DNA of 64,000 nt, from contig NZ_CP019893.1 of assembly GCF_002156705.1 (NCBI RefSeq), positions 3,844,001 to 3,908,000 of the forward strand, in the 5' to 3' direction. Made by a program: the position numbers and the translations under genes. The stretch comes from Natrarchaeobaculum aegyptiacum. GTDB taxonomy: Archaea > Halobacteriota > Halobacteria > Halobacteriales > Natrialbaceae. This document shows positions 8,256 through 48,741 of the stretch, in pieces; positions within the stretch are counted from its first letter, which is position 1, and the number at the start of each line of letters is the position of its first letter. The notes under the pieces were generated by a model. It saw nothing but the letters and a program-made list of their open reading frames with translations. It was not told the DNA's origin and searched no databases.

Positions 8256-9851
8256 TCACCGACGCGCCGTCACGTCGACTCCGTCCTCGAGCAGTCGGTC
8301 GCGGACGGCCTGTCGGTCGACCGTTCCCGAGGCCGTTCGCGGGAGCGCGTCGATGACAGCGATCGTCTTCGGACGTTTGAACCCGGCCAGTCGATCGTCG
8401 CAGTGCTCGAGTACGGAGCCGAAGTCGAGGTGGGCGTCCATCGAGAGGTCGCCGACGACGCCGGCCCTGTCACCGCGGGAGCGGCCCCGCATGGGGACGA
8501 GAAGCGAACCAACGCGCTCCCCCCACTCCTCGTCTGGAAGGCCGACGACGGCTGCGTCCTCGACGTCCGGGTGTGATCGAAGGACGTCGACGACTTCCCC
8601 GGGATCGACGTTCTCGCCACCGGTGAGGATGCGGTCACTCCGTCGATTGAGGACCCAGAGCCTGCCGTCGTCGTCCCGGCGGCCGACGTCGCCGGTCCGC
8701 AGTCCGTGTTCGGTGAACGCCGCGTCGGTGTGGTCTGGGTCGAGGTATCCGGGACTCACGGTCGGACCCGAGACGACGAACTCGCCGATTTCACCCGTCT
8801 CGACGGGGCCACCGTCGTCGTCGACGACCGTCACGTCGGTGACGACGAGTGGCTGGCCGACCGTGCCACCGTACTCGAGCGCCTCCGCGGGCGTCGCCGT
8901 CGCGATCTGTGAGGCGGTTTCGGTCATTCCGTAGGTCGGGTAGACCGGAACGTCGGCCGCGTGACAGCGCTCGAGTAACTCCGCGGACGCGGGTGCGCCC
9001 CCGAGGAGGACGAACCGTAGCGATTCGGGCGGTTGCCAGCCCGACTCGAGTAGCCGTTTGCACATCGTCGGGACGAGCGAGACGCCGGTGACGTCGTAGG
9101 CCTCGAAGACGCGAGCGGTCGCGTCGGGGTCGAACGTTCGCTGGATCACGACGGTCGTCCCGTACAGCGTCGAGCGGACGAGCGGTGCGAGCCCGCCCAT
9201 GTGGTACATCGGGAGACAGCAGAGCCAGCGATCCGCGTGATCGACACCCAGGCGAAACGCCGAGGCGGTCGCGCTCGCCAGCAGGTTGCCGACGGTCAAC
9301 CGAACGGCTTTCGGCTCGCCGGAAGTGCCCGACGTGAACAGGACGAGGTGAGTGGCGTCGGGATCGGCAGGGTTGGCGGGAACCTCCCCGGCCGCCGGTT
9401 CCACCGGCCTCTCGAGTGCCGGCACCTCGAGTTCGTGAACCTCCGCCCGGTCGGGATCGGCTACCGATAGCACGGGGCCGTCGACGATCTCGAGGGCTGT
9501 GGCCTCGGTCGCTTCCTCACAGACGAGCGCGTCGAGATCCGTTCGTTCGGCCTTCGAGGCGAGTTCTGGAGCGGTCTCTCGGACGTGCAACGGGACGAGT
9601 TCCACGCCGAGACGCGTCGCGGCGAAGTACACCTCGGCGAACGCGATGCCGGTATCGAGCAGGAGGCCGAGTCGGTCACCCGCCTCGACGTGGCTCGCGA
9701 GCGACGCGGCGACGACGTCGACCCGCCGATCGAATCCGGCGAAGGTCCACGAGCAGTCGTGATCGGCGTCGACGACCGCCGTCGCGTCCGGCGTCGTCTC
9801 CGCGCGGTGGGCGAGGACGTCACTCGAGGGCCACTCGCGAACGCCGGTCAT
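8256..9851 (-). CDS. menE: o-Succinylbenzoate-CoA ligase
   Basis: A 531-residue ANL-superfamily adenylate-forming enzyme that activates o-succinylbenzoate with ATP and CoA in menaquinone synthesis. Motifs are the P-loop LFTSGTSGEPKAVRLT, YPTYGMTETASQ, the hinge region TGDVGRRDDDGRLWVLNRRSD and the late lysine segment LPRTASGTVDR. Its ATG overlaps the menC stop (ATGA), so it is the last gene of menA-menC-menE. The large in-frame extension toward 10337 lies inside menC and is not used. Two internal inserts rich in Arg/Gly occur near residues 440-460. Confidence 0.93.
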   Translation of the reverse strand: MTGVREWPSSDVLAHRAETTPDATAVVDADHDCSWTFAGFDRRVDVVAASLASHVEAGDRLGLLLDTGIAFAEVYFAATRLGVELVPLHVRETAPELASKAERTDLDALVCEEATEATALEIVDGPVLSVADPDRAEVHELEVPALERPVEPAAGEVPANPADPDATHLVLFTSGTSGEPKAVRLTVGNLLASATASAFRLGVDHADRWLCCLPMYHMGGLAPLVRSTLYGTTVVIQRTFDPDATARVFEAYDVTGVSLVPTMCKRLLESGWQPPESLRFVLLGGAPASAELLERCHAADVPVYPTYGMTETASQIATATPAEALEYGGTVGQPLVVTDVTVVDDDGGPVETGEIGEFVVSGPTVSPGYLDPDHTDAAFTEHGLRTGDVGRRDDDGRLWVLNRRSDRILTGGENVDPGEVVDVLRSHPDVEDAAVVGLPDEEWGERVGSLLVPMRGRSRGDRAGVVGDLSMDAHLDFGSVLEHCDDRLAGFKRPKTIAVIDALPRTASGTVDRQAVRDRLLEDGVDVTARR

Positions 9852-10951
9852 GCGTCTTCCCACACCCCCGTGACGCCGAGTCCCTTGGTCTGCGGGACGA
9901 CTGCGGCCCCCTTCTCGAGCAAGACGGGATCGCGAGCGAGATCCGCCGCGAGTCGGTCGGCCGTCGCCAGCCCACTGGGCGCAACGTTCGGGATCGCAGC
10001 CGCGAGGTGGACGGCCCCCGTCCGGGCAACGACGCCGTCGATCGTCGTCGTCACGATCGCCTCGATCCCGAGTTCGCTCACCCAGGCGGCCATCCGGCGG
10101 GCGACGTCGATTCCGCCGAGGGCCATCGGCTTCAACACGATCGCGTCGGCTGCACCCGCGGTACAGACGTCGTCGAGATCGTGCTCGAGGAGCCCCTCGT
10201 CGAGGGCGATCCCGACCCCGTGGCCGCGCAAAGCCGCGTGACCCTCGAGTGCACCCGGGGGGAGGGGCTGTTCGACGAGTGCGACATCGAGATCGGCGAA
10301 CGCCTCGATCGCGCGCAGGGCCTCGTCGTAGGTCCACGCACCGTTTGCGTCGACCCGCAGTTCGACGTTCGGACCGACGGCGTCGCGAACCTGGCGCAAG
10401 CGTTCGACGTCGGCCTCGATCGATCGCGCACCGACTTTCACCTTGCAGGTCTCGAACCCGCGGTCGGCCGCGGTACGTGCGTCAGCAGCGGTCGTCGCCG
10501 GGTCCGCGTCACCGACCGTCGCGTTGACGGGAATCCGGGCCACCATCGGTCCCCGGCCGAGATAGCGATACAGCGGCGTCGCAGACGTGCTTGCGTGCCA
10601 GTCGGCGAGCGCGAGCGTCACCGCGTGTCTGGCGGCCGGCTGCTGGTCGACTTCCTCGAGTGCGGCCTCGGGCCCGCTGGGCGGAAGGGCATCGCTCGCC
10701 CGCTCGAGTGCGGCCTCACAGTCGGCACGCGATTCCGTGAAGCCGGCCAGCGGGGTCGCCTCGCCGTAGCCGATCACCCGCTCCGAATCAGCGGAAACCT
10801 CACCACGGTTGCTCTCGGCCGCGTTCTCGTCGAACACGCGTACGAGGAACCCGTCACGGTGCTCGATCGACCCACTCGCCGTCTCGAGCGGGCGCTCGAG
10901 CGGGAGCGAGAACGATCTGTGCTCGAGTCGAAGTCGGGTGTCGTCGCTCAT
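9848..10951 (-). CDS. menC: o-Succinylbenzoate synthase
   Basis: A 367-residue enolase-superfamily enzyme. It dehydrates SHCHC to o-succinylbenzoate. The catalytic set is readable: Lys in CKVKVGARS, metal ligands Asp in LRVDANGAW, Glu in LVEQPLPP and Asp in IALDEGLLE, and the second Lys in IVLKPMALGG. The start ATG at 10951 overlaps the menA stop by ATGA, and the stop overlaps the menE start the same way. Translational coupling of the three genes is likely. Confidence 0.94.
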   Translation of the reverse strand: MSDDTRLRLEHRSFSLPLERPLETASGSIEHRDGFLVRVFDENAAESNRGEVSADSERVIGYGEATPLAGFTESRADCEAALERASDALPPSGPEAALEEVDQQPAARHAVTLALADWHASTSATPLYRYLGRGPMVARIPVNATVGDADPATTAADARTAADRGFETCKVKVGARSIEADVERLRQVRDAVGPNVELRVDANGAWTYDEALRAIEAFADLDVALVEQPLPPGALEGHAALRGHGVGIALDEGLLEHDLDDVCTAGAADAIVLKPMALGGIDVARRMAAWVSELGIEAIVTTTIDGVVARTGAVHLAAAIPNVAPSGLATADRLAADLARDPVLLEKGAAVVPQTKGLGVTGVWEDA

Positions 10952-11895
10952 ACGATCACCAGGCCCCCGGCGAACAGGAGTGCGTACAGCGCGAGCAGTT
11001 TGCCGGTGCCCTCGAGTGCCGGATTGAGCGCCTCGCCGTCGGTTCGGGTACAGACGGTCCGGGCGACGACGGCCGCGTACGGTAGCGTCACGAGCGGAGC
11101 CAGAACGCCGGGTCCGAACCCTTCGACGAGCCAGAACCACAGGGGGATCACGTAGGCCAGCCCGACCATTGCGAGGTACTCGAGACGGCTCAGGCGGTAG
11201 CCGAGCCGAACTGCGAGCGTTCGTTTACCAGCGGCGGCGTCGGTCTCGCGGTCGCGGACGTTGTTGACGACGAGGATGGCCGTCGAGATGCCCGCGATGG
11301 GGAGGCTGGCGAGGAACGCCTCGCGCGTGACGGTTCCCTCGGGGATCGTCGTCGGCAGCGGGCCGACGGGGGCGACAGCCGCTGCCTGCACGTAGAAGGT
11401 GCCGACGACCGCGACGACGCCGAAGAAGACGAACACGAACAGATCGCCGAGGCCGTGGTAGCCGAGCGGGTACGGACCCCCGGTGTAGGCCCATCCACAG
11501 AGGACGCTGACGAGGCCGATTACGAGGATCGGAAGCCCGCCGACGTAGACGAGATAGGTGCCAGAGAGGATCGCCAGTGCGAACGTGACGATCGTCGCGA
11601 GTTTGACCTGTTCCGGCGGGATCAGCCCGGACTGGGTAACGCGCGTGAAGCCGTCCCGGTCGTCCGTATCCGCGCCCTTGACCGCGTCGTAGTAATCGTT
11701 CGCGAAGTTGGTGCCGATCTGGATCAGCGCCGCACCGACCAGCGCCATCAGCGCCGGCAGCGGCGCGAAGAGCCCCTCGTGGACCGCGAGTCCCGTCCCG
11801 ACGATGACCGGCGCTGCGGCCGCAGGCATCGTCTGGGGACGCGCGGCCATCACCCACGCCTTCGTCCGCGAGATCTCGTCCTCGGCCGTACTCAT
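10948..11895 (-). CDS. menA: 1,4-Dihydroxy-2-naphthoate polyprenyltransferase
   Basis: A 315-residue integral membrane prenyltransferase of the UbiA superfamily. It attaches the polyprenyl tail to DHNA to make demethylmenaquinone. The first Asp-rich motif is [18 protein letters not shown]. The second is [23 protein letters not shown]. Eight or so membrane helices follow the usual UbiA spacing. It is the first gene of the menA-C-E operon. MenA products are the main respiratory quinones of haloarchaea. Confidence 0.95.
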
Positions 11896-11975
11896 TGCCT
11901 ACTCTGTCACACTCGAGAGGGTGAAAACGTTGGCATTCTCACCAGCGGTCGCCGCATTCGCCCGTCCAGTACAGG

Positions 11976-12845
11976 CTACGGACGGCGGCCACGCAGCCAC
12001 ATCGCGAGTGCGCCGACGACACCGGTGGCGGCCCCGAACGCGGCGAATCCAGGCACCGCGTCGGTGGCCGACTCGTCGCTCGAGGCGGTCTCACCGTCAT
12101 CGTCAGACGCGGACTCGTCACCCGATCCGCCGTCCGCCGGTGGTGTGGCGTCGTCAGTATCGTCGTCGGTTACCTGGTCCGCTTCCGATCCAGATCCGGA
12201 CTCGTCGTCCCCCTCGAGGTCGTCCGCGAACGTCACGCCCTGGGGCCCTCCGTCGTCGTCCGCGTCGTCCAGTTCGTCCTCGGCGCCGCCGTCGACGTGG
12301 ATCGTCGCGTCACGGCTGATCGGATACACCGGCCAGTCGCTCGGCCGATACGCCTGTGCATTAGTGAGGTCGACCGTGGTCGAGGTCGAACCCACGTCGT
12401 CCGGTACGTCGAACGTGATCGTCGCGGCGGCCTCGTATCCGGTCCCGCCGTCGCCAACTGGGTCGCGCTCCTGTTCGACGGTCACCCGCCCCTCGTCCTC
12501 GTCGATCTCGGCGTCGGTCACGAGTTCGACGTCGTCATCATCCCCGAGCATCGACTCGTGTTCGACCTCTGACGCGATCAGGACGTCCGGGTCGTAGTCG
12601 ACGTCGAACGAGAGCGACGCCAGACCGTCACCGCTCGAGTCGCCGTGGTCGTAGGCGACGACCTCGAGCGTGATCGTCTCGCCCGAGTCGACCGCGTGTT
12701 CGGATTCCTCGAACTCGAGCAGGGACGTCCCGTCGCCGGCGATCACCGCTCCCGGAACGGCGACGAATACCGCGAGGGCACAGCCGAGAACGACGAGCGC
12801 TACGAGCAGGAGACGCGTTCGCCTCGAGTGGCTGTTCGCCTGCAT
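11976..12845 (-). CDS. Secreted cohesin-like protein with PGF-CTERM anchor
   Basis: A 289-residue surface protein. An N-terminal signal helix (LLLVALVVLGCALAVFVAVP) is followed by a beta-rich domain of about 140 residues, with text such as LSFDVDYDPDVLIASEVEH that resembles cohesin/carbohydrate-binding modules. A long Asp/Glu/Ser linker follows, then VPGFAAFGAATGVVGAL plus WLRGRRP. That tripartite end is the PGF-CTERM signal processed by archaeosortase A. The start codon overlaps the stop of the upstream lipoprotein gene by one base, so it is the last gene of a three-gene operon. A structural or docking role at the cell surface is inferred. Confidence 0.8.
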   Translation of the reverse strand: MQANSHSRRTRLLLVALVVLGCALAVFVAVPGAVIAGDGTSLLEFEESEHAVDSGETITLEVVAYDHGDSSGDGLASLSFDVDYDPDVLIASEVEHESMLGDDDDVELVTDAEIDEDEGRVTVEQERDPVGDGGTGYEAAATITFDVPDDVGSTSTTVDLTNAQAYRPSDWPVYPISRDATIHVDGGAEDELDDADDDGGPQGVTFADDLEGDDESGSGSEADQVTDDDTDDATPPADGGSGDESASDDDGETASSDESATDAVPGFAAFGAATGVVGALAMWLRGRRP

Positions 12846-17609: not shown

Positions 17610-17799
17610 TGCTCGAGTGTGGCCGCCCGGTCGTGAAATAGGTTCTCGTCCCGGGGATCGCAATCGTTCCAGTTGCCGTTCACGGCCCGTATCCGAGTAG
17701 CACATCTGACACGACGATACTCGAGTTCTGTATAGCACGGTATAGTTTATCAGTTGTATATGGGCCGGACCCAACGTTCTCTCAGGACCAGTCAACCAG

Positions 17800-44775: not shown

Positions 44776-44895
44776 TTTTCCCCGCTTCCCGCCACGAGCG
44801 TGAATTCGGGCACGAAGTCGTTTGATCAGCTGTTTTGACACCGCCGTTCGTGTCACCAGTCCAACCACCGACCGTGTAGCGCCCACACTAATCTT

Positions 44896-44920
44896 GGTAT
44901 AGCGAAATAAGGTTTATCAG
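44896..44920 (+). repeat. Left 25-bp inverted repeat
   Basis: Begins GGTATAGCGAAATAAGG and ends TTTATCAG. It pairs with the right copy with two mismatches. A small palindrome ACACAA-ATA-TTGTGT follows at 44932-44946. Confidence 0.8.
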
Positions 44921-44989: not shown

Positions 44990-45680
44990 TCAGAGGCACA
45001 GCGAGTAGATGTGCTCGAGGTACGTCTCCCGAACCCGATCGCCCCAGTCGTGGGTGTAGGTGTCGATGACGTCGCTCGCGACGTCGCCACGGAGGTACTG
45101 GACGATCCCCCGATCACCCGTTCGGTCCCGCAGGTGCGTCGTGAAGAAGTGCCGGAAGTAGTGTGGCGTCACGTTCTCGGTCGTCCCGCCGCCCGTGCGG
45201 TACCACCCGGGCTCTCGAGCGTGTTTCTCGACGACGTAGCGGATATCCGCCGGCGTCAGGCGTTCTCCCCATGAATCACGGGTGTCGAGAAAGAGCGGGT
45301 CCGCCGGCGACACCGGGTCGGGCGGATCGCGAGCCACTCGAGCAGTGCGCGACGAAGCTCATCGTCCAGCGGAATCACCGTCTCCCGCTTCCGCTTGTTC
45401 GAAGCAGTCCGCCGTTCGCCGTTGACCACCGCCCCACGAGCTGGTTCCGACGAAACGTACAGTGAGGACGGCCGTCGATCTAGCTGGACGCGATGGGTCC
45501 ACCCGAGGTCGAGTTCGGGTGTCTCGAGGTGCAGATCCCGAAGATCCAGGTTGCAGCACTCCCCGCCTCGAGCGTCCGTTCGCTCTTGCCGTGGTACTGC
45601 TGGTCCTCGAGGAAGTACCCGATCGGATCGTCGACCTCCGCGGGGGCGTCGAGTCCGGACTCAGTCGCCACGCTCACCAC
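44990..45680 (-). pseudogene. Decayed tyrosine recombinase
   Basis: Minus-strand fragments match the intact recombinase at 46.5-47.6 kb. The N-terminus (DDPIGYFLEDQQYHGKSERTLEA) opens at a GTG at 45680. It then jumps, with loss of about 110 codons, to LDLRDLHLETPELDLGW in another frame, continues with ASNKRKRETVIPLDDELRRALLEW, and ends in a third frame with VTPHYFRHFFTTHLRDRTGD and DTYTHDWGDRVRETYLEHIY. One deletion and at least two frameshifts make it inactive, although the catalytic HxxR and Tyr text survives. Confidence 0.82.
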
Positions 45681-45905
45681 CCGTGCCCTCGACGATCGTG
45701 TAGCCGCCGTGGCGACCGCTGTAGCGAATCCGATTGTCGGCCTGCAACTCGCCGAGGGTCTCGTCGAGTCGCGACTCGATGTCTTCGCTCACCGCCTCGA
45801 GCAACCCCTCCCACGAATACGTGTCAGTCGAGAGTAACTCGAGGACCCGGTTCTCGAGGGCGTTACCCCCAGGGTTTGGGTAGGGAAGAACCCATGTGAA
45901 TTCGC
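45661..45905 (-). pseudogene. Truncated DUF5805-like protein
   Basis: The minus-strand frame reads RHLTDGEFTWVLPYPNPGGN, then ALENRVLELLSTDTYSW, then LDETLGELQADNRIRYSGRHGGYTIVEG to a TGA at 45661. It corresponds to the C-terminal half of the intact protein at 46.1-46.5 kb (LQDENRIRYSGRDGGYMLID). The N-terminal DNA-binding half is missing. As in the intact copy, its end overlaps the start of the recombinase frame. Confidence 0.72.
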
Positions 45906-45982: not shown

Positions 45983-46100
45983 TTATTTGTGGCCGTAGTT
46001 CCACCAGTACTGGTTTTGAAGCAATAGATTCACAAATAAGGGCTCAGATCACCGAGAAATACGACCCGACAATCACAAATAAATACCCTTATTTGTGAAT
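45983..46100. promoter_or_regulatory. Cluster of CACAAATAA motifs, putative operators
   Basis: Four copies of CACAAATAA or its complement TTATTTGTG occur at 45983-45991, 46031-46039, 46074-46082 and 46089-46097. The second and fourth extend to a perfect 15-bp inverted repeat (46028-46042 and 46086-46100). The cluster lies directly upstream of the intact DUF5805 gene, whose N-terminus looks like a ribbon-helix-helix DNA binder. Autoregulation is a natural hypothesis. Confidence 0.6.
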
Positions 46101-46140
46101 GTGGGGCAGATTGAAGTGGCGGGGGTGAGATCACGAACTC

Positions 46141-46542
46141 ATGGCGACCGACGATCCGTCGATGGAACGAACGAGCGTGAAGACCTACGTTCCAGCGTAC
46201 CAGAAAGAAGAGTGGGCCCGCCACGCAGAAGCCCTCGGGATGAGCCAGAGTGAGTTCATCCGCACGATGGTGCAGGCAGGACGAGCCGACTTCGAAATTC
46301 CATCGATGGTCGAACCGACCGCGACCACCGACCGGGCAGAATCGACGGATACTGGGGACTTCGAAGACCGGATCGTCACCGTCCTCAAGCAGGAAAACGT
46401 ACTCGACTGGGACGAACTCGTCGATCAGCTAATCGACGATGTCGAAGACGATCTCGATGCTGCGCTGGGACAGTTGCAAGACGAGAACCGAATCAGGTAC
46501 AGCGGGCGTGATGGAGGCTATATGCTGATCGACGATGAGTAA
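46141..46542 (+). CDS. DUF5805-like putative DNA-binding protein
   Basis: A 133-residue protein. Residues 9-45 resemble a ribbon-helix-helix (TSVKTYVPAYQKEEWARHAE then LGMSQSEFIRTMVQAG). Residues 75-133 look like a winged helix: DRIVTVLKQENVLDWDELVD, LDAALGQLQDENRIRYSGRD, GGYMLIDDE. It ends inside the recombinase gene (8-nt overlap), so the two are co-translated. By position it may be an excisionase, a repressor or a recombination accessory factor. The same pair is found in other haloarchaeal genomes as far as I recall. Confidence 0.8.
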   Translation: MATDDPSMERTSVKTYVPAYQKEEWARHAEALGMSQSEFIRTMVQAGRADFEIPSMVEPTATTDRAESTDTGDFEDRIVTVLKQENVLDWDELVDQLIDDVEDDLDAALGQLQDENRIRYSGRDGGYMLIDDE

Positions 46543-47584
46543 CTCCAAATCCCAATCCGAATCCGAATCCGAATCCGACTCGATCGGCTACTTCCTCGAG
46601 GACATCGAGTACCACGGCCGAAACGAGCGGACGGTCGCCGCGTATCGACGAGTGCTTCGGTCGTTCGAATCGTTCCTCGAGGAACGGTTCGGCAAAACGC
46701 CCGTGGAAGCAGAGTACAGGGATTGTATGGCGTTCGTACACGATCTTCGGTCGAACTATACCGACAGCACCGTCGCGAGCTACGCGTCCTATCTCAACCG
46801 CTATTACGGATATCTCGTTCGGGTCGGTCAACACGACGAGAATCCGATGGAACTCGTCCTAGAGGAAATGAACGAATCTATCGAGTCGAATCCGTCGAGG
46901 CGCGATATTTCACTCGCAGAGATGCGCACTTTCGTGGAAACGATCAGACATCCCCTGCACAAGGCGATCGTGATGACCTTCCTCAAAACGGGAATCCGAT
47001 CCGGTGAACTTTGCAACCTCGATCTGATCGACCTGAACCTGGGTCACGACGGTCAGTCGTGGCATCCACGGGCGCAAATCGCCGAGAAGCCCGATACGCT
47101 GTACATCTCGGCGGAGCACAGCTATGGGGCCGAATCGGGCGGAACGGTCCGTCGGGCATCGAATAAACGAAAGCGAGAGACGACGATTCCCGTCGACGAC
47201 GAGCTCAGGCGCGTCCTGCTTCGGTGGTTAGCAATTCGACCGAACGTTCGATCCCCAAGTGAACCGCTGTTTACGAGTACTGCTGACGCCTGGGGACGTC
47301 GCATTACGATCGATACAATACACCACATCGTCGAGCAGTACGCCAGGGAGTATGGATGGCTTCGTACCGGGGGTGGCGCTGCCGAAAACGTGACGCCGCA
47401 CTACTTCCGGCACTTCTTCACCACGCATCTCAGGGACCGGACGGGTGATCGCGGCGTCGTCAAGTACCTCCGCGGCGACGTCGCGAGCGACATCATCGAC
47501 ACCTACACCCACAACTGGAACGACCGCGTCCGGGAGACCTACCTCGAGCACATCTACTCGATTACGGACGTCGAGAGTAACTGA
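46535..47584 (+). CDS. Tyrosine recombinase/integrase
   Basis: A 349-residue recombinase. The N-terminal SAM-like core-binding domain covers about residues 16-100 (DSIGYFLEDIEYHGRNERTV, then YASYLNRYYGYLV). Catalytic residues are Arg155 (KTGIRSGELCNL), a Lys in the NKRKRET strand, His289 and Arg292 (VTPHYFRHFFTTHLRDR), and the nucleophile Tyr324 (IIDTYTHNW). All are present, so it should be active. An N-terminal Ser/Glu repeat (SESESESDS) is a slippage-prone tract. It overlaps the HNH fusion gene at the 3' end by 23 bp, convergently. Confidence 0.93.
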   Translation: MSNSKSQSESESESDSIGYFLEDIEYHGRNERTVAAYRRVLRSFESFLEERFGKTPVEAEYRDCMAFVHDLRSNYTDSTVASYASYLNRYYGYLVRVGQHDENPMELVLEEMNESIESNPSRRDISLAEMRTFVETIRHPLHKAIVMTFLKTGIRSGELCNLDLIDLNLGHDGQSWHPRAQIAEKPDTLYISAEHSYGAESGGTVRRASNKRKRETTIPVDDELRRVLLRWLAIRPNVRSPSEPLFTSTADAWGRRITIDTIHHIVEQYAREYGWLRTGGGAAENVTPHYFRHFFTTHLRDRTGDRGVVKYLRGDVASDIIDTYTHNWNDRVRETYLEHIYSITDVESN

Positions 47585-48425
47585 CGAGGTCGAAAATCGC
47601 TTCCCGGTAATTCTCCTCGAAGGTCGAAAAATCGATCGCTGACGCGTCTATTCTGCCGAGGATGTTCCCTCTGTATTTCGGCTGGCCTCGAAAGCGTTCC
47701 TCGAAGAAGTACCGGAGCGCGACCGGCGTAAGGCCCTCTACTGCCATCTCAGTGGGGCGTTCGTCGTCCGCCAGAGCCATCTTCGCGAGGCGGTGGCGAA
47801 CAGTCGATGGCTCGAGACGCGTTCCCCACCCGGCTCGCGTTTTCGTAAATAGGGCCTGGGTTTCGGGATGATCGGGTCGAATCGCTAACCACCGTTTGAG
47901 TGCACGTTCGAGTTCGGTATCGACTGGAATGTAGGTGGTTTCGTTCCGTTCACGACGGTTATTGTACGGAATATCACCGCCGTATCGAATTCGGATTCCG
48001 GGACCATCGAACGAAACGGGAAGGGGAGTACACTCTTCGTTAGAACCGAAATCATCCAGATTCAGGTTACAAAGCTCCCCAACACCGATCCCCGTTTTCG
48101 CCAGTGTCAACAGTATCGCGCGAGAGAGTGGATGGGTGGTCAAGCGAAGAATAGTCGCTACGTGATCAGTCGATAGGACATCCCGTTCGCGAGATCGTGA
48201 TGTTCTCCCACCACTCCCCGACCGATGGTTGTGAGCCGATCGATGACAGTCTCGACAGAGTGTAGCCAGGTTGCTCGTTCGATTCGTCCCTCGGTTGCAC
48301 ACGGGAACGATGTGATGGACGACGAGATTACTCGTCGCCCGACAGTTTAAACACCGTCTCTCATCACGATTCAGGACCGCCTCTCTGACAGTGAACCACT
48401 CGTTCCCCCGGATGCGTTCACCCAT
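47562..48425 (-). CDS. HNH endonuclease fused to a catalytically reduced tyrosine-recombinase domain
   Basis: A 287-residue protein. Residues 20-66 are a canonical HNH: CLNC (25-28), HHIVP (37-41), TSNLATLCRDCHRSAH with Cys57, Cys60, His61 and His65. From about residue 85 it aligns to the neighbouring recombinase: TKTGIGVGELCNLNLDDF-like text (Arg replaced by Gly114), IPVDTELERALKRWLAIRP, then LTPVALRYFFEERFR, where HxxRH has become VxxRY (Arg238 kept). The ending FSTFEENYREAIFDLV has no Tyr at the nucleophile position. It lacks the N-terminal core-binding domain. The recombinase part may only bind DNA, guiding the nuclease. A TATA-like TTTATTCATA lies upstream. Confidence 0.85.
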   Translation of the reverse strand: MGERIRGNEWFTVREAVLNRDERRCLNCRATSNLVVHHIVPVCNRGTNRTSNLATLCRDCHRSAHNHRSGSGGRTSRSRERDVLSTDHVATILRLTTHPLSRAILLTLAKTGIGVGELCNLNLDDFGSNEECTPLPVSFDGPGIRIRYGGDIPYNNRRERNETTYIPVDTELERALKRWLAIRPDHPETQALFTKTRAGWGTRLEPSTVRHRLAKMALADDERPTEMAVEGLTPVALRYFFEERFRGQPKYRGNILGRIDASAIDFSTFEENYREAIFDLVSYSRRP

Positions 48426-48741
48426 TGCTGACGTTCACTACTATTATTTTCTTATTTTTCGCTATGAATAAATCCATCTGTTACGTCGCCACTCACGGGG
48501 ATTCGTCGATGGTGCCAAACCTGATGAACCCTATTTCGCTATACCCAATCCACGAGACCCCAGCAGTTCCGAGCACGGTCTACCGTCGTCTCGTCAGAGG
48601 CGGGGAGAAAGCGCGTCGTAACGTGATTCGAGCGGTTTCGGGAACGATGCGGACGGGTTACCACTAGTTGCTCGAGCGCCCAGTCTGAACACAATCGCGA
48701 TTTCGCGCGGCGATGTCGTGCTCTCGAGTCGATGCCGACCA
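48426..48741. other. Element end and intergenic region
   Basis: Holds the AT-rich promoter of the HNH fusion gene (48430-48480), the right inverted repeat, and about 195 bp of ordinary GC-rich sequence up to the cruF stop. No gene is supported. Confidence 0.5.
48521..48545 (-). repeat. Right 25-bp inverted repeat
   Basis: On the minus strand it begins GGTATAGCGAAATAGGG and ends TTCATCAG, matching the left copy at 23 of 25 positions. It lies 96 bp upstream of the HNH fusion start. Confidence 0.8.

Follow-up and report, generated by a model that had tools for sequence, protein, structure and literature searches.

An HNH nuclease domain joined to a catalytically dead tyrosine recombinase beside candidate dif-like sites at a resident locus of Halobacteriales

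Introduction

A 64,000-nucleotide stretch of the Natrarchaeobaculum aegyptiacum genome, referred to here as the window, contains a gene whose product combines an HNH nuclease domain with the remains of a tyrosine recombinase, and which lies tail-to-tail with an intact recombinase gene. What might such a protein do, and does it belong to a mobile element or to the locus in which it sits? Searches of the open-access literature, which lacks most subscription papers and whose silence counts for little, yielded no description of an HNH–tyrosine recombinase fusion, of DUF5805, or of an inverted pair of dif-like sites, and the word HNH is absent from a review of archaeal recombinases. For Haloferax volcanii a review reports 12 xerC/D-like genes, four of which were deleted without loss of viability, with a role in termination not settled (PMC7776575); the available text of two reviews describes no haloarchaeal dif site.

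Organization of the locus

The features of the window discussed below are as follows.

44894–44920, minus strand: 27-bp dif-like site downstream of RecB (37.2 bits)
44999–45629, minus strand: decayed second recombinase, RecB copy, found as tblastn pieces; residues ~37–150 missing, frame broken
45688–45858, minus strand: remnant (C-terminal part) of a second DUF5805 gene, found by similarity search
46065–46106, no strand: inverted repeat TTATTTGTGA/TCACAAATAA upstream of the ribbon-helix-helix gene; presumed operator
46141–46542, plus strand: partner gene with a ribbon-helix-helix-like part and DUF5805 (PF19121, E 7e-27)
46535–47584, plus strand: intact Xer-like tyrosine recombinase (RecA copy, P0002); its end overlaps that of the fusion gene by 23 bp, tail-to-tail
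47562–48425, minus strand: HNH–dead-recombinase fusion gene, a single open frame of 287 aa
47577–48176, minus strand: catalytically dead tyrosine-recombinase domain, aa ~84–283 (alignment, and Foldseek match to XerA)
48228–48404, minus strand: HNH nuclease domain, aa ~8–66, replacing the N-terminal core-binding domain of the recombinase (PF01844, NF040563, invariant zinc/HNH residues)
48521–48547, plus strand: second 27-bp dif-like site (31.2 bits), inverted relative to the first and 95 bp upstream of the fusion gene

The DUF5805/recombinase pair (46141–47584) is near-universal in Halobacteriales. Members of the recombinase family (E ≤ 1e-60) are present in 99 of 99 good genomes, almost always as a single copy, and a DUF5805 gene adjoins the recombinase at the inspected loci. 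The ribbon-helix-helix part of the DUF5805 protein is recognised by NikA-like (E 0.005) and RHH_1 (E 0.03) matches, both under the cut-off, and the words of the TTATTTGTGA/TCACAAATAA repeat recur upstream of ribbon-helix-helix genes at other loci. Judged from sequence comparison, the locus is resident in essentially all Halobacteriales and has conserved flanking genes. The initial annotation spoke of an element that carries the fusion, and a mobile element does not fit the window: the same flanking genes surround at least seven HNH-carrying and many HNH-less loci, with L039, L040 and L042 as exceptions that are located elsewhere or only partly syntenic.

The window and the loci L035, L038, L041 and L074 each have an inserted second DUF5805/recombinase pair, arranged tail-to-tail with the fusion. 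In the window it is the older recombinase that has decayed, and this one clusters with the RecB lineage. An association between the fusion and recombinase duplication (Fisher p 0.0004, from hand-entered counts) is not relied on because several copies apparently derive from one ancestral event; the genomes are related, and p-values here and below are indicative only. The spacer of HNH-less cassettes contains no recognised conserved gene, and cargo other than the fusion was accordingly dismissed.

Domains and residues of the fusion protein

The HNH half is intact, as first annotated. Residues 25–66 match the Pfam HNH family over its cut-off (PF01844, E 5e-8), and C25, C28, H37, H38, N52, C57, C60, H61 and H65 are unchanged in all ten open copies, placing the domain in the HNH nuclease superfamily. 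The remainder aligns with the neighbouring recombinase (aa 84–280, 33% identity, E 3e-24) and residues 101–220 match Phage_integrase (PF00589, E 1.3e-5) slightly under the cut-off.

The catalytic losses proposed from the window alone recur across the family in a 37-row alignment of 10 fusion proteins and 27 recombinases. At the Arg-I position the window protein has Gly114, with glycine in 10/10 fusions and arginine in 27/27 recombinases; the HxxR histidine is Val235 here and is replaced in every fusion; and the tyrosine-bearing segment (TYTHNW) falls in a gap in all ten, while Arg-II (Arg238) is retained in nine. With Arg-I, His, Lys and Tyr all absent, the protein lacks the R-K-H-R-(H/W)-Y set of an active tyrosine recombinase. 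More recombinase sequence is kept in two helical segments (aa 161–185 and 204–221) than in the catalytic boxes.

A predicted structure (pLDDT 75), built from fusion proteins alone, nevertheless has the fold of a tyrosine-recombinase catalytic domain. Its best PDB matches are archaeal XerA (4a8e and 5hxy; Foldseek E 2.8e-7), and it superposes on the lambda Int core with a TM score of 0.70 (normalised by target). The initial annotation was right to expect a structural match, and needs amending as to which part of the recombinase was kept: rather than the usual DNA-binding module, it is the dead catalytic domain, since the HNH domain stands where the N-terminal core-binding domain would be and no SAM-like core-binding domain is matched by Pfam in the fusion.

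The fusion protein family

The same two-domain order is present in other haloarchaea. Counted from the places listed by a whole-genome search, 15 of 392 sampled Halobacteriales genomes (about 4%) carry the fusion; beyond that search, G015 came from a search of relatives and the Natrinema hispanicum copy from its genome contigs. The 17 Halobacteriales copies comprise ten that are open (G000, G088, G103, G360, G122, G363, G239, G192, G015 and N. hispanicum) and seven that are broken (G204, G146, G179, G189, G075, G032 and G207), whereas the partner recombinase is nearly always open. Searches of viral contigs and plasmids returned no full-length fusion, only HNH-only or recombinase-only matches.

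The ten aligned fusions form one clade with support 1.0 against 80 recombinase sequences (arbitrary rooting). In the closest pair (L035 and L074) dN/dS is 0.14 at dS ~1, a figure that applies to this pair only, the remaining pairs being saturated or close to it; this indicates that the fusion is a genuine protein family under selection.

Dif-like sites

The 25-bp repeats on which the initial annotation proposed to assay nicking exist (44896–44920 and 48521–48545, inverted, 92% identical), and they form part of the pair of 27-bp dif-like sites of the window. The motif (consensus CtcATAAAtcgTATaTcGCTATATcgA) lies downstream of the recombinase and consists of two inverted ~10-bp arms around a 7-bp spacer. 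Scored with a matrix seeded on the window's site and trained on recombinase-side sites, it exceeds 23 bits in 68 of 79 scanned recombinase copies; no score over 13 bits occurs in 787 kb of mononucleotide-shuffled sequence. An exact form of it has matches in 51 of 61 whole genomes, with one match for the reversed control.

A second, inverted site is situated upstream of the DUF5805 gene, and both are present in 69 of 72 loci. All 69 pairs share the same inverted, outward orientation, with a median distance of 2.9 kb, an arrangement that could suggest an invertible switch. However, the two spacers of a genome are identical in only 2/69 pairs, and their mean mismatch (3.07) is that of shuffled partners (3.11), so that spacers are no more alike within than between genomes, which argues against routine inversion; inspected sister pairs also have a common cassette orientation, as assessed by eye. 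The pair of genes and its inverted sites form a candidate haloarchaeal Xer/dif-like system. Sites adjoining intact fusions score lower on average than those of HNH-less cassettes (26.9 vs 31.7 bits; Mann-Whitney p 0.049, n=6), and at this p-value and sample size self-protection of carrier sites through their sequence is not relied on.

Position of the fusion gene

Most fusion copies are enclosed by the inverted sites, with the DUF5805 gene on one side and the distal site on the other, the latter often 40–170 bp away. The initial annotation asked whether the fusion always accompanies a DUF5805/recombinase pair. Most copies do, and these also adjoin a dif-like site; at L076, L077 and L078 the fusion is away from the resident recombinase; the L075 copy is outside the site pair. 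Copies away from the recombinase adjoin a dif-like site (L042, L076 and L077) or a DUF5805 gene (L078). At L076 (4726–6938), on a 56-kb contig, a ParA gene is followed by a 17-bit site, upstream of the fusion, and then by the fusion itself. At L077 a tail-spike-like gene lies close to the fusion, which has a 21.5-bit site on its downstream side. At L078 (7280–8570), which contains neither dif-like site nor recombinase, it follows the DUF5805 gene immediately and occupies the position normally taken by the recombinase; the two genes are flanked by an iron-sulphur (sdhB-like) gene and a flavoprotein gene.

Filled and empty cassettes can be compared within one genus, where L038 (with the fusion) and L101 (without it) have flanks and recombinase that are ~95% identical. 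The replaced segment starts immediately beyond the distal site and ends midway through the DUF5805 gene; past the recombinase, the spacer likewise differs. Such a replacement fits gene transfer by break repair, without proving it; since the segment also bears a second recombinase/DUF5805 pair, ordinary recombination accounts for it as well.

Proposed function

The best reading of the patchy spread, the decay and the location beside a site of a near-universal gene is that the fusion is a homing-type nuclease that lives as a parasite of the resident Xer-like locus and binds DNA through a domain derived from a recombinase; we hold this tentatively, at a little short of an even chance. The fusion would have begun as a duplicate of the Xer-like recombinase resident in haloarchaea, from which the catalytic residues and the N-terminal domain were lost and to which an HNH domain was added. 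The recombinase part would settle on the 27-bp sites on either side of the DUF5805/recombinase locus, the HNH part would cleave or nick the DNA at that point, and repair of the break from a gene-bearing chromosome would copy the fusion and the cassette end into lineages without it. In phages, homing nucleases are known to occur close to essential genes (PMC10448857). Presence in few genomes together with decayed copies is what homing-type genes display, and seven broken fusions of 17 beside recombinases that are mostly open would correspond to the expected pattern of invasion and decay. On the other side, the missing N-terminal domain is the source of much of a recombinase's grip on DNA, and the sites are still present in carriers, which leaves their escape from self-cutting unexplained.

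The usual place of the fusion beside a site of the near-universal recombinase means that it may be either a selfish or a regulatory cutter of that site. In the main rival explanation the fusion would be the recombinase's working partner, its dead domain filling one half-site or joining the tetramer; at the dif-like sites its HNH domain would nick DNA and so guide recombination, resolution or expression. The one-strand order fusion–DUF5805–recombinase at L039, L040, L043 and L044 favours this, as do the position of the L078 copy and the better conservation of the two helical segments than of the catalytic boxes relative to the recombinase. Yet the recombinase occurs on its own, with no fusion, in about 96% of sampled genomes and 7/17 copies are broken, so there is no general need for it, and we regard a working partnership as rather unlikely. 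Equally doubtful in our estimation is the broader proposal of a resident Xer-like system common to Halobacteriales (one DUF5805/recombinase pair and two inverted dif-like sites, whose unlike 7-bp spacers preclude a simple invertible switch) for which the HNH fusion would be a dedicated second enzyme cutting those sites.

The nuclease might instead act in exclusion or defence, cutting incoming plasmids or viruses that bear dif-like sites. Its HNH domain resembles those of defence nucleases (weak PADLOC matches), many genomes have dif-like sites outside the cassette, and two copies lie behind a ParA gene (L076) and close to a tail-spike gene (L077). However, no defence-system model covers the fusion and no defence genes adjoin it in the window, and copies on plasmid-like or virus-like contigs suit invaders more than defence; this role seems improbable. 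That the fusion is an old, functionless by-product retained by chance in a neutral spacer agrees with the broken copies and with the absence of a conserved gene from the spacer of HNH-less genomes, and is very hard to reconcile with the dN/dS of the closest pair and with ten open copies whose HNH residues are invariant across deep branches.

Comparison with known systems

The C-terminal half of the fusion shares its fold with archaeal XerA but differs in its catalytic losses and in the replacement of the N-terminal domain by HNH. Even the intact neighbour, Xer-like and with sites built of two inverted arms, reaches 115.5 bits against a cut-off of 220 for the XerA equivalog (NF040815), and 41 haloarchaeal genomes encode no protein over that cut-off. 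The fusion resembles free-standing HNH homing endonucleases as a small HNH gene that is patchy, often decayed and beside a conserved locus; its putative DNA-binding part, unlike theirs, appears to derive from a tyrosine recombinase. IscB, an RNA-guided HNH nuclease, is the best NCBIfam match of the HNH domain (NF040563), but the 59.8 bits are far from the cut-off of 175 and cover only positions 181–243 of 314, and the fusion has no RuvC part and no sign of RNA guiding, which separates it from IscB. Recombinase-in-trio elements likewise have three recombinase-derived genes with inverted repeats on both sides; in the window one of the three is decayed and one is the HNH fusion, and the locus is resident rather than mobile.

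Should the homing-type reading be true, a dead tyrosine recombinase would be directing a nuclease to its target. The surroundings of the fusion are a larger finding than the fusion itself, and the candidate Xer/dif-like system may outweigh it in importance: the site pair offers a specific candidate for the Xer target that is still missing in haloarchaea, and the sites and partner genes are directly testable in H. volcanii.

Additional sites and insertions

Single dif-like sites also occur outside the cassette, in the genome of the window (17727–17753 of the window, and G000:C1 12259 and 1730030) and in other genomes. In G016 an inverted pair 4.2 kb apart (C1 2418530, minus strand, and 2422738, plus strand) is distant from the recombinase locus. 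In L038 the proximal site is separated from the C10 gene by ~2.9 kb (9354–12333) that is absent from L101, and the edge of the dif-like site may be a hot spot for insertion.
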